The position numbers and the translations under genes were made by a program. Shown here piece by piece: positions 3,411-34,523 of a stretch of 64,000 nt of DNA; position 1 is the first letter of the stretch, and each line of letters opens with the position of its first letter. The DNA comes from Anaerolineae bacterium (lineage in GTDB: Bacteria; Chloroflexota; Anaerolineae; 4572-78; J111): positions 1 through 64,000 of the forward strand of contig JAFGDY010000315.1 of assembly GCA_016931895.1 (NCBI GenBank), given 5' to 3'. The notes under the pieces were generated by a model. It was not told where the DNA came from. It searched no databases and was given only the letters and a program-made list of their open reading frames with translations.

Positions 3411-3439
3411 CTAAGCTACAATTGAATCACAAAACGTAA

Positions 3440-3614
3440 CAGCGCCCCCACCGGGTGCGCGCTCGCGTAGAGGAAGCCGGTTCAAGGCCGGCACTGTCCC
3501 GCAACGGTAATCTTGCTCCACGGCAAGAAAGTCCGACACTCCCCTGTTGCGTTATCGTCTCGTGACCACCTACGAGGAATAGGGGGGCGAGGCCGGAACC
3601 CAGAAGTTTTCAGC
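3440..3614 (+). ncRNA. Cobalamin (B12) riboswitch aptamer
   Basis: The core shows the hallmark series of the AdoCbl riboswitch class (Rfam Cobalamin, RF00174): GGAAGCCGGT near 3472, a GGCCGGCACTGTCCCGCAAC block at 3486-3505 and AAGTCCGACAC near 3529. A distal arm with GGCCGGAACCCAGAAG follows before the terminator. In the family, adenosylcobalamin binding shuts off expression of transport and synthesis genes. The gene that follows is btuF, which fits. Confidence 0.95.
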
Positions 3615-30276: not shown

Positions 30277-33036
30277 TTAGTCGCTTAGACAATTCCAGGT
30301 TTGAACACCTTCACCAAAGTTGATGCTCACCAGGATGATGTCGAGAACGTCCACAATCTCATCCCGGTTGATGTCGGTGGGCAGGCCGGGGCCGGTATTG
30401 CCCAGACTGAGGCCAACGGCGGTCGCGTCGGTGATGTCTACAATGTTATCACCATTAACATCGCCACTCTTCAGAGCAACCGTAACCAGGATTGTCTCCG
30501 GCGCCGTTATGGTGGGCGCAGTACAAACGGACGGCAGGTAGCCCGGCGCATCGGCGGTGATGGAGGTATGCAGTCCCGGGGTCACATCCACAATGCTGAA
30601 CTGACCCGTTGCCCCGGTGGTATAACTTTGCCCACTATCATCAACCGACACAACGGCATCCGACCAATTGTTGTTAGCTCGACCCGACAGGCTGACTTGT
30701 CCTGTAAGCGTAGCCATTCCCGGTTCGGTGGTCGGCGTCGGCGAAGTGGTCGGCTCACTCGTCGGTTCGGTGGTTGGCGTCGGTGAAGTGGTCGGCTCAG
30801 TTGTCGGTTCGGTGGTTGGCGTTGGTGAAATGGTCGGCTCAGTTGTCGGTTCGGTGGTTGGCGTTGGTGAAGTGGTCGGCTCAGTTGTCGGTTCGGTGGT
30901 CGGCGTTGGCGAAGTGGTCGGCTCAGGGCCAATCGTGACAGTATAACTCTGCGGGATTACGTCAAAAGCAGTGGCTTCGGGATTACCCAGTTTCTCATTT
31001 TCAAAGGTAAACGTCACCTCACCTGAAGCGTCGGTGGCCACAGTAACTTCAAACGTCAGCAGCACAACATCACCGGTCAAGCCGGATACATCACCCTGGC
31101 GGCTGGCCACCATTGTGATTTTACCGGCCACATTGTCTACATTATTGAGTACAACAAAAGGTAAATTGGCGTTGACCTGGGAGTTACTGACTGTAACTTT
31201 ACTGGAGTCGTAGTTGACGTCCAACTGCGCTCCGTAAATGCCGTCGCCCCCTACCCCTTGCGCTTCAACAGCCACCGTGAAAGACTCGCCCGGATTGGCA
31301 GAACTGGGGCCATCAAAGGCCAGGATAACCGGACTGGGAGTTGGCTCGGCAGTGGGTGAAGTGGTAGGTGAGGTGGTGGGGTTAGTGGTAGGTGAAGTGG
31401 TGGGGTTAGTAGTGGGTGTAGGTGTAGGCGTAGACGGCTCGCCTGTTCCCTCGTCGGCAAAAATCAAAACTGCTCCGCCACCTGACTGGCCGCCATCTGG
31501 AAATTCATTCCAGCAGCGGTCGGTAACGTACACTTTGCCGTTGTTGGGATTGATGGCAATTTCAAAGGGATTTTTCCATTGCAGGCTATCGCTCACCAGC
31601 GGCGGATTACCAACAACCGTGTGGGGGAGTTTCCATACACCGGGCGCGTCACCGGCCAATACTCCGCCATCAAAATTGATGGCATAGGTCCCGCCCCGCG
31701 CTTCGCTGTTGCAGACGGCCTCGTCGCCATAGGCATCCACGTAGGGGAAGCCAGCATAGGTGCCCAGCATGTGCTGCGTGGCCGGGTTGTAAACCAAACC
31801 AACTTCGGCATAATCACCAACCTTGATATCGGAATTGCGCAGCAACACATTCTTGGGGTCTATCGTCGAAAAGCTATAGACCAACAATTTGTTGGGGTTG
31901 ATAAAATCGGGCTGGACCGGGTCAGCGCGAGTATCACGGGCATAGGTCATGAACAGCCGCGGCTCAATCATCCCTTCCTCTTGCCAGAGACCAATGGCAT
32001 AGGGTGAACCACTGGGGCGTTTAGCGTCTCCATAGGGCAGGATAATATTCTGTTCCGTGTACCCAAAAGGTTCGGCGCTATTAAGCCCCCGGAACTGGAA
32101 GGGGCCAGGATTGTTGTAATCTCCGGTAATGGCGTCACGCATGGTCACATAATTGTAGCCTTGTAAACTCTTAGCCACTACCAGCTCAAAGGGACTGAAA
32201 CCATATTGGTTGGCGATAGGTGGCTCGGCCACAATCTCGGTGCCATTGATAATTACCACCCGCCCGTCCTTATAATCCGGAAAGTGAACCCAACCCGTAA
32301 GCGGGTTAACGTCTGGCGCAGTAGGCCCAAAAGTATCGCGTTCCGGTTTAACATTGGCTATAACGTTATCGGTGTTGGCGTCAATCACGGAAACCAACCC
32401 GTCTTCAAAAGCGCCCACGTAAACGTTATCGCCGGACACAGCCACGCCCCAGGGGCCACGTCCAATACCGTCCGGCCCGCCGGGAATGGTGCGGAGCACT
32501 TCATCAGTGTCACCATCAATCACGGCTACAAAGGGATACGGCTTGGTTACAACCGTTTCAGTTACCGCGCTTGTTGAAACTTCTGATAGGATGACCGGCC
32601 CCTGAAAAGCAACGTAAACCTTATTTAACCCGGCATGTATCGCCACTCCCTTGGGATGCACCGGATAAACGGCGCCTAGAGTCACTTCAGCCTGCTCTCC
32701 TTCAGCCAAGTCAATAGGAGTACGAGGGGTGGTAGGGTAGTAGCCCTGGCTGGTTCCGCTGAAACGCAGAAAGGGGGTATAGCTTCCGGGAGCCAGATCG
32801 GTAAACGTAGCCGGAATAGGCAAACAATTGGTTTCGTCGTTCAAACAAGCCTCTACACCGGCAGGAACAACGCCGTCAACAGCATCGTCGCAATCACCAT
32901 CCGCGTTTTGATCGGTACAGGCGTTGACCATAATCGTCCCATCACCTTGGGCATAAACCACGCCAAATGGTAAAGCGATAAGCAGTAACAGCCCCAACAC
33001 GATAAACCACCGTTTAGTAAAAATTATATTTCTCAT
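30277..33036 (-). CDS. Secreted beta-propeller protein with cohesin and dockerin domains
   Basis: 919 aa, AGGAG before ATG 33036. Signal peptide (1-29, ends VYA). Residues 30-125: a Cys-containing beta domain (DQNADGDCDDAVDG); 125-525: NHL/YVTN-like propeller with PWGVAVSGDNVYVG and NPNNGKVYVTDR; 530-570: Thr/Pro linker; about 572-700: cohesin-like domain (SANPGESFTVAVEAQG, GAQLDVNYDSSKV, LLTFEVTV); 702-772: five 14-residue PTTSPTPTTEP repeats; 774-855: carboxypeptidase-regulatory-like beta-sandwich; 862-919: type I dockerin with two calcium loops, DVNGDNIVDITD and DINRDEIVDVLD. Cohesins bind dockerins in cellulosomes; here no cellulase accompanies it. Likely surface or adhesive; the exact partner is unknown. 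Confidence 0.85.
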   Translation of the reverse strand: MRNIIFTKRWFIVLGLLLLIALPFGVVYAQGDGTIMVNACTDQNADGDCDDAVDGVVPAGVEACLNDETNCLPIPATFTDLAPGSYTPFLRFSGTSQGYYPTTPRTPIDLAEGEQAEVTLGAVYPVHPKGVAIHAGLNKVYVAFQGPVILSEVSTSAVTETVVTKPYPFVAVIDGDTDEVLRTIPGGPDGIGRGPWGVAVSGDNVYVGAFEDGLVSVIDANTDNVIANVKPERDTFGPTAPDVNPLTGWVHFPDYKDGRVVIINGTEIVAEPPIANQYGFSPFELVVAKSLQGYNYVTMRDAITGDYNNPGPFQFRGLNSAEPFGYTEQNIILPYGDAKRPSGSPYAIGLWQEEGMIEPRLFMTYARDTRADPVQPDFINPNKLLVYSFSTIDPKNVLLRNSDIKVGDYAEVGLVYNPATQHMLGTYAGFPYVDAYGDEAVCNSEARGGTYAINFDGGVLAGDAPGVWKLPHTVVGNPPLVSDSLQWKNPFEIAINPNNGKVYVTDRCWNEFPDGGQSGGGAVLIFADEGTGEPSTPTPTPTTNPTTSPTTNPTTSPTTSPTAEPTPSPVILAFDGPSSANPGESFTVAVEAQGVGGDGIYGAQLDVNYDSSKVTVSNSQVNANLPFVVLNNVDNVAGKITMVASRQGDVSGLTGDVVLLTFEVTVATDASGEVTFTFENEKLGNPEATAFDVIPQSYTVTIGPEPTTSPTPTTEPTTEPTTSPTPTTEPTTEPTISPTPTTEPTTEPTTSPTPTTEPTSEPTTSPTPTTEPGMATLTGQVSLSGRANNNWSDAVVSVDDSGQSYTTGATGQFSIVDVTPGLHTSITADAPGYLPSVCTAPTITAPETILVTVALKSGDVNGDNIVDITDATAVGLSLGNTGPGLPTDINRDEIVDVLDIILVSINFGEGVQTWNCLSD
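30718..30927. repeat. 42-bp tandem repeat inside the cohesin-dockerin gene
   Basis: Five nearly identical 42-base units encoding the 14-residue linker repeat (E-P-T-T-S-P-T-P-T-T-E-P-T-T). The number of units probably varies between strains and changes linker length. Confidence 0.85.
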
Positions 33037-33138: not shown

Positions 33139-33243
33139 CTATAAACGGGCGTTAAATCTTATTGCCCAACCGAATCCCTCCCAGGTATTACCCCTAGCCT
33201 GGCGGGCTTCTTCCACTGAATGTTTGCGCCTCCATTTTGCCAT
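33139..33243 (-). CDS. Possible 34-aa leader peptide
   Basis: ATG 33243 stands two bases after AGGAGG and the frame runs 34 codons to TAG. The product is basic (MAKWRRKHSVEEARQA at its start) and matches no family known to me. It lies between a terminator (33269-33328) and the cohesin-dockerin gene, about 100 bases before its start. It may be a leader peptide or a chance frame. Confidence 0.35.
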   Translation of the reverse strand: MAKWRRKHSVEEARQARGNTWEGFGWAIRFNARL

Positions 33244-33268: not shown

Positions 33269-33490
33269 CAAAAACGCCCCCTGCGCGCTTTGAGTCTTTT
33301 ACAGATAGACCCAAAGACAGGGGGCGTTGAAAGGCAAGCACATACTTTAAACAGGACGAAACTTGGCTAATTCAAATCTCGTCCTGATGGTCTGGCGTGT
33401 TGCCGGATAGCCCTGAACGCAGGTGTAAATTTGTTAAAGAACAACCCCCAACTGGTGGGGTTGATTAGGTTACACTTAAGGTAACACTAC
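33269..33490 (-). ncRNA. Structured RNA from promoter to terminator (leader riboregulator or sRNA)
   Basis: The minus-strand transcript starting near 33490 would fold into GTGTAA/TTACAC (33475-33470 with 33428-33423) enclosing CAACCCC/GGGGTTG, then CAGGACGA/TCGTCCTG (33386-33379 with 33359-33352), then a long terminator hairpin (33328-33273) with T-run. No known riboswitch class was recognised. It precedes the cohesin-dockerin gene by about 230 bases. The rest of the spacer, 33525-33656, shows no gene. Confidence 0.55.
33273..33328 (-). terminator. Strong intrinsic terminator upstream of the cohesin-dockerin gene
   Basis: AACGCCCCCTG (33273-33283) pairs with CAGGGGGCGTT (33318-33328); the inner CTTTG-GTC segments add pairs. 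On the minus strand the stem is followed by GTTTTTGTT. Confidence 0.8.
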
Positions 33491-33496
33491 TTAACA

Positions 33497-33524
33497 ATTG
33501 TAACATATTTTAAGGCAATGACAA
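33497..33524 (-). promoter_or_regulatory. Promoter of the structured RNA
   Basis: Minus strand: TTGTCA (33524-33519), 16 bases, TACAAT (33502-33497). Confidence 0.6.
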
Positions 33525-33656
33525 CAGGGTAATAAGTCCTAATCAGGATTTGCTGGGGATTCAGCCCTGGCACAAACAATGCCAACAAAGATTACATTAT
33601 TGGGGACAATTATAATCTGGCGGAAAGGAAATTGTTGATAACAGACAGTGAGGCAA

Positions 33657-34523
33657 TTACTTTTCGTGATACACTAATGTGGATACACCTACTAATATAA
33701 TATCGCCATCTTCCAGGTAACGGGAGCCTTCAATGCGCTCATCATTAACAAAGGTGCCGTTCAGACTATTTTGATCTTCGATGATAAAATGGCCAGATTC
33801 ACAAATGATTCTGCTGTGCTTACGAGAGATTTCTTTGTCATTGGACAAAGAAACAATATTATCACCGGCGCGTCCTATGGTGGTGATACCGCCGACCAAT
33901 TTGAATACCTCTCCGGCGTGGGGACCAGTAATACAATCCAAATAGGCTGTTATTTCACCAGCCTTTTCCGCCGGAAGCACAAAGGTGGCTTCGTCATCTT
34001 CAACTCCAACCTGTTCTTCTTCAAACACCAGGGTAGGATCCTCGTCATCATCAAAGTCCAGGCTAACTTCTGGCAATGGTTCTGCCAATTCGCCAACTGC
34101 GGCAGGCATTGCCGTTCCTTCAGCCGCTTCGGCTTCGGCAAGGGCCATTGTCATTCCCTCAACCGCCTCATCTTCGTCGGGCAGTTCAAGGGTGGCATCG
34201 GTATCTTCTAAAGCGGCAATGTCCATAGGGGGCGCGTCTATCTCTTTTGCGTCCAGCCCAGACGCGCCCACACCCGTTTGTAACAATACAGGCCGAGAGT
34301 CGTCTTGCTCCACCGACTGACCGGGCCTGCCCCTGAGACATCTTATCTGGCTACGGGGAATCATTATCGGCTCGTCGCCAACTTGGATAAAAACATTCAA
34401 TTCATCTTGAGTTAAAAATTCGCCGTCAAGCGTGTCACCATCCAAAAATTGAACAGTGACCCACCCCTTCAGAGTCAATAAAAATAAATCTTTCGCCTTA
34501 AGTGGATTATCTTTAGCCGGCAT
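33657..34523 (-). CDS. FHA-domain protein with N-terminal small beta domain
   Basis: 288 aa, GGGAGGAA before ATG 34523. Residues 10-65: a beta-barrel-like domain (GWVTVQFLDGDTLDGEF, MIPRSQIRCLRG) of the kind often fused to FHA in this phylum. Residues 75-185: acidic, low-complexity linker. Residues 195-288: FHA domain, with GRAGDNIVSL, SRKHSRI (phosphothreonine-binding Arg/Ser/His) and NSLNGTFVN. FHA domains bind phosphothreonine, so it is a candidate partner of the kinases at 128 or 41147. No enzymatic domain. Confidence 0.85.
   Translation of the reverse strand: MPAKDNPLKAKDLFLLTLKGWVTVQFLDGDTLDGEFLTQDELNVFIQVGDEPIMIPRSQIRCLRGRPGQSVEQDDSRPVLLQTGVGASGLDAKEIDAPPMDIAALEDTDATLELPDEDEAVEGMTMALAEAEAAEGTAMPAAVGELAEPLPEVSLDFDDDEDPTLVFEEEQVGVEDDEATFVLPAEKAGEITAYLDCITGPHAGEVFKLVGGITTIGRAGDNIVSLSNDKEISRKHSRIICESGHFIIEDQNSLNGTFVNDERIEGSRYLEDGDIILVGVSTLVYHEK

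Follow-up and report, generated by a model that had tools for sequence, protein, structure and literature searches.

The window analysed here (the whole stretch of DNA, 64,000 nucleotides) carries on its minus strand a gene for a secreted protein, preceded by a promoter, a structured leader and an intrinsic terminator. The features of this locus are listed below in 5' to 3' order along the minus strand.

33657..34523, minus strand: FHA-domain gene upstream, a separate unit; synteny kept in the same-genus genome G006
33527..33539, minus strand: box GGACTTATTACCC, 5' of the -35 element, common to the promoters of the regulon
33497..33524, minus strand: sigma70-type promoter TTGTCA-N16-TACAAT, kept in the G006 ortholog
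33442..33463, minus strand: 5' hairpin CAACCCC-ACCAGTTG-GGGGTTG, adjoining the 5' side of boxA in a boxB-like position
33432..33442, minus strand: boxA GTTCTTTAACA, a predicted NusB-S10 site
33417..33423, minus strand: capture segment CCTGCGT, complementary to part of the terminator 3' arm
33333..33404, minus strand: central hairpins, variable, conserved in neither sequence nor length
33275..33326, minus strand: intrinsic terminator hairpin, with a CGC bulge in its 3' arm that is part of the contact with the capture segment
33280..33286, minus strand: GCGCAGG, 3' partner of the capture segment, from pairing and covariation
33270..33274, minus strand: terminator U-tract, read from the sequence
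33139..33243, minus strand: 34-codon open reading frame with AGGAGG, 3' of the terminator
30277..33036, minus strand: regulated gene, secreted, with NHL repeats, a cohesin domain and a sub-threshold dockerin (Pfam)

The original prediction described the downstream gene (33036..30277) as a cohesin-dockerin gene; the cohesin domain is confirmed by Pfam (E = 2.6e-11), and the dockerin, at 10.9 bits, stays below the cut-off of 22.9. The 34-codon frame that was also pointed out does exist (33243..33139) and is not conserved: it is absent at the orthologous locus of G006 (L009), relative to which the window carries ~160 extra bases at this place, and a Pfam search of it gave no match. A leader-peptide attenuator was ruled out because this frame follows the terminator and lacks conservation. 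Elsewhere in the window, a cobalamin riboswitch (RF00174, 41.9 bits) lies at 3435-3561 on the plus strand.

The RNA from 33495 to 33269 has a folding energy of -88.6 kcal/mol, compared with -57.6 +/- 4.7 kcal/mol for its dinucleotide shuffles (z = -6.56), and 0 of 200 such shuffles were as stable. The promoter, structured leader and terminator expected at this site are all present. The 5' hairpin before boxA is itself more stable than expected in the window (z = -2.85), reaches z < -1 in 10 of 17 leaders, and is absent in the others. The remark that known riboswitch classes were not recognised has likewise held: an Rfam scan of the leader returned no family at the gathering score and nothing credible at E<=10, and eight loci carrying copies elsewhere were equally without matches, so that a known class was rejected for window and copies alike.

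Copies of the unit were located by DNA, covariance and promoter searches. The promoter (GGACTTWTTNCYC, then TTG and a -10 element) and the leader recur before ~20 genes in one Anaerolineae family, and these genes encode secreted cohesin proteins, a sortase, FHA proteins, sensor kinases, a response regulator and a MalT-like ATPase; apart from the window genes, names of genes were read off translations rather than assigned from databases. The promoter pattern GGACTNWTTNCYCNNTTGN{18,21}TANANT gave 17 matches across 396 genomes of the class, every one in the family of the window, and the reversed pattern, used as control, gave none. Covariance model R1 together with the promoter pattern found no member outside this family in the same 396 genomes. 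A second model, R2, run on 25 genomes of the order, gave only weak matches outside the family, one of which (L154, G013:C110) reads as a T-box-like leader (GGGTGGCACCGCG) before a trpE-like gene, and a protein-based scan of named genomes returned three loci, all known members. A chance match to the promoter pattern fell in a CRISPR-like array (L086, G008:C127) whose repeat contains TTTTTTCCCCATTCGATCCGCAGTGGATACTGAAAC.

Within the genus, G006 keeps the order FHA gene, promoter, leader, terminator and cohesin gene, with the terminator ~70 nt from the ATG (L009). Other leader copies precede the ortholog of the cohesin gene in G009 (L010), a cohesin-type cluster (L011), an FHA-winged-helix gene (L012), a coiled/TPR-like gene (L002, G000_TPR), two secreted proteins (L103, L073), a small protein (L110) with a homolog in the genome of the window (L166), and a PAS/GAF-type protein (L120); further copies are L048 and L050. 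The promoter box is also found before genes for MalT-like ATPases (L062, L089), the sortase (L067), a pentapeptide-repeat protein (L069), sensor kinases (L064, L127), GAF proteins (L125, L129) and the response regulator (L121). The target had been called an adhesion-type protein; adhesion describes just a part of the regulated set, which consists mainly of signalling and cell-surface genes. Three of these loci show peculiarities of their own. At L066 and L075 the box GGACTTWTTNCYC precedes a gene for a cyclic-nucleotide-binding histidine kinase and the leader terminator is absent, and in L121 (G009:C726) the loop of the terminator seems to hold an inverted-repeat insertion (CAGCACTTACGCAGTT ... 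AACTGCGTAAGTACTGG).

The arrangement of these copies argues strongly that the leader is a cis-acting transcription attenuator of the gene downstream, a conclusion well supported by sequence comparison and in line with the attenuator role first proposed. Promoter, leader terminator and gene lie on one strand, the same unit precedes many same-strand genes, and no second minus-strand promoter-like site was found in the window between terminator and start codon. In G001_sec (L103), ~17 nt, among them the Shine-Dalgarno sequence, separate the end of the U-tract from the ATG, which leaves no room for a second promoter, so that expression would need read-through. The leader also contains a covarying alternative structure that excludes the terminator.

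This alternative structure is a contact between CCTGCGT (33423..33417) and GCGCAGG (33286..33280), which includes the CGC bulge of the terminator. The contact covaries in related leaders, being CCTGCA/TGCAGG in L010 and TCTGCG/CGCAGA in L012. In L002 it is retained as GCTGCG/CGCAGC, and the same base forms a C.C mismatch within the terminator. It extends to a 10-bp duplex in L048 and reads TCCCTGCA/TGCAGGGA in L050. Over nine sequences, 95% of cells are paired, with five double-sided changes (0 of 500 shuffles). A comparative covariance check had been suggested for this RNA, and in the 17 leaders compared it found that the capture segment and the terminator arm covary: 12 have a duplex specific to their own sequence (own-versus-foreign permutation p = 5e-5). 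The contact is absent from the remaining five (G007_srt, G009_pent, G004_HK, G002_TPR, G009_RR) despite a boxA-like motif and a terminator; the terminator of the sortase leader lacks the bulge as well. Two MalT leaders have a terminator and neither boxA nor contact, and in two copies that turned up later the contacts visible by eye do not surpass those of shuffles (p = 0.07 and 0.26). Contacts start 12-18 nt after the start of boxA, while the loop between the pairing segments ranges from 43 to 164 nt. In the L010 leader (58-200), this variable middle contains a tandem GGATTTT repeat, with boxA, contact and terminator retained.

In the full-length leader the terminator is ~11 kcal/mol more stable than the contact. 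We considered timing through equilibrium folding of growing transcripts, a calculation that ignores polymerase and kinetics. For the window, the contact is predicted to dominate once the 3' arm has emerged up to CGCAGG(G), after which the terminator wins. A transient contact phase is predicted in 9 of 12 copies, lasting into the U-tract in L048 and L050, and in the other three copies the contact fails to form.

The conserved unpaired segment just upstream of the contact is likely a boxA, i.e. a predicted NusB-S10 site. In the window and in L010 (GCTCTTTAAAA) it matches GYTCTTTAANA exactly, a consensus derived for Gammaproteobacteria (PMC5725501), the host here being a member of the Chloroflexota. 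In rrn leaders of the family, the position expected for boxA is occupied by ACYTTAACAA, and the boxA of L009 (TACATTAACAA) is identical to that of two rrn leaders; a 16S gene was not found in the genome of the window, and this comparison therefore uses rrn leaders of relatives. A matrix built from the family rrn sites only was scored over the 25 nt that precede the contact in 12 leaders. It scores high in most of them (combined p = 8e-14 against AT-matched windows) and more weakly against whole-leader shuffles (combined p = 7e-5; not significant in several leaders), both combined values overstating independence because the leaders are related. It is important to note that boxA is a short, AT-rich motif; 0 of 2000 column-shuffled matrices did as well as the rrn-derived one. 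NusB is present in the genome of the window.

Combining these elements, we propose, with confidence about evenly balanced, that the leader is an attenuator relieved by Nus-factor antitermination of the rrn type, in which boxA tethered by NusB and S10 presents the capture segment and delays terminator closure. Polymerase starting at the GGACTT-box promoter would make the 5' hairpin and boxA and then reach the intrinsic terminator, an order given by sequence and comparison. NusB-S10 bound to boxA would, by analogy with the known rrn complex, tether the leader at the RNA exit of the polymerase, and the tether would hold the segment 3' of boxA where the terminator 3' arm emerges. The capture segment, whose pairing is supported by covariation and whose timing is predicted, could then pair with this arm over a region made up of the bulge and the upper part of the outer stem. 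That stem would be slow to close as polymerase passes over the U-tract, and we infer that the outcome is read-through into the gene; with boxA unoccupied, most transcripts would end at the terminator. We speculate that the trigger may be the availability of free NusB-S10, and hence growth state.

Other mechanisms could account for parts of this evidence. A plain RNA attenuator, in which the segment after boxA competes with the terminator without Nus factors, either alone or through a ligand or protein binding the AU-rich motif, seems to us somewhat unlikely, yet it accommodates the contact, the best supported element, and treats the likeness to boxA as that of an AU-rich single-stranded linker. 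Such a linker could mimic boxA, and boxA matches are weak in several leaders; against this, the enrichment of the rrn-derived matrix is position-specific relative to AT-matched windows and column-shuffled matrices, two leaders match the consensus exactly, and hairpin and boxA, where both are present, follow each other as in rrn leaders. A Nus complex assembled on boxA might also have the reverse or some other effect, reducing translation or favouring termination, with the contact aiding or regulating the loop. The precedent is suhB, which Nus factors repress via boxA in E. coli (PMC5725501); that repression is translational and then Rho-dependent, whereas here boxA precedes an intrinsic terminator and the contact falls on its arm, and we consider this sense of action improbable.

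Two further explanations fit the copies poorly. The promoter-to-terminator unit of ~220 nt with its strong fold would suit an independent trans-acting small RNA with its own terminator, which we nevertheless judge very unlikely, as copies stand before same-strand genes, once ~17 nt from the ATG, the downstream genes differ, and boxA and the contact are the only conserved segments that are exposed. Fainter still are the prospects of an undescribed class of metabolite riboswitch, the unknown riboswitch of the original prediction. A terminator in the leader and the missing Rfam match would agree with it, but no aptamer-like core is conserved: the middle varies freely in sequence as well as in length (43-164 nt), also among orthologs of the same genus, conservation is confined to boxA and the terminator-pairing segment, and the regulated genes have no common metabolite theme. 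LoaP-type antitermination was also rejected; the genome of the window has one NusG-domain gene, which makes a LoaP-like paralog unlikely, and each of the genomes covered (G000, G006, G001, G002, G003, G010 and G011) gave a count of one.

A point against the proposed mechanism is that Rho, rather than intrinsic terminators, is what the E. coli rrn complex is mainly known to resist. The proposed NusB/S10-tethered attenuator shares with the rrn leader signal (boxB-boxA-boxC; rrnTAC with NusA/B/E/G, SuhB and S4) the order of boxA and, within a limited distance, a segment that pairs with much later RNA, and in the window and ~10 of 17 leaders also a hairpin before boxA. In the published model of the rrn complex, NusB-tethered boxA keeps boxC near the RNA exit for pairing with the emerging trailer (PMC10250234), whereas here the capture segment pairs with a terminator arm; the present leader heads protein-coding genes, and the intrinsic terminator 3' of boxA is itself the pairing partner. 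The suhB gene and other gammaproteobacterial mRNAs likewise have boxA in a 5' UTR outside rRNA (PMC5725501), suhB being repressed through translation and Rho, in contrast to the intrinsic terminator, covarying contact, gene set and phylum found here. T-box, trp and pyr attenuators also rely on pairing that is mutually exclusive with part of a terminator; the competitor described here differs in adjoining boxA and in its partner, which is the last-emerging 3' arm and not the 5' arm. LoaP and lambda N/Q similarly act by antitermination of leader or operon terminators, and nut sites too have boxA, LoaP being set apart by the single NusG-domain gene of the present genome. As boxA on mRNAs and attenuators are each already known, the novelty would lie in their union with covarying capture of the 3' arm, and a literature search of incomplete coverage found no report of boxA, intrinsic terminator and 3'-arm capture combined as a regulon.

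The promoter box and leader would supply a regulon for a poorly studied family of uncultured Chloroflexota. A boxA-like signal, a kind best known elsewhere from rRNA operons, together with a stop hairpin to which the RNA after boxA can pair, suggests that signalling and surface genes borrow the read-through machinery of rRNA to escape an early stop. We tentatively go further, on balance doubting more than believing it, to a lineage-specific mRNA attenuator regulon run by the rRNA antitermination complex, in which boxA-tethered RNA would act as a chaperone that captures the terminator 3' arm and would couple expression of signalling and surface genes to the ribosome-building state. If right, Nus-factor antitermination would switch individual genes at the intrinsic terminators of ordinary mRNAs, and these leaders would offer a compact natural test of whether boxA tethering enables a leader to pair with much later RNA.

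The rrn leaders of the family show a further structured RNA. In six of them (L092, L093, L096, L097, L098, L099), a second structured RNA with an intrinsic terminator lies between promoter and boxA, laid out as GAACTCG hairpin AAGTTC ... GGAGAC ... GTCTCC ... CCGGCATCC..GGRTGTCGGTTTTT. An Rfam scan of the L098 copy gave no credible match. This RNA is possibly an attenuator of rRNA synthesis, and in L093 the promoter, RNA and terminator occur as two tandem copies.
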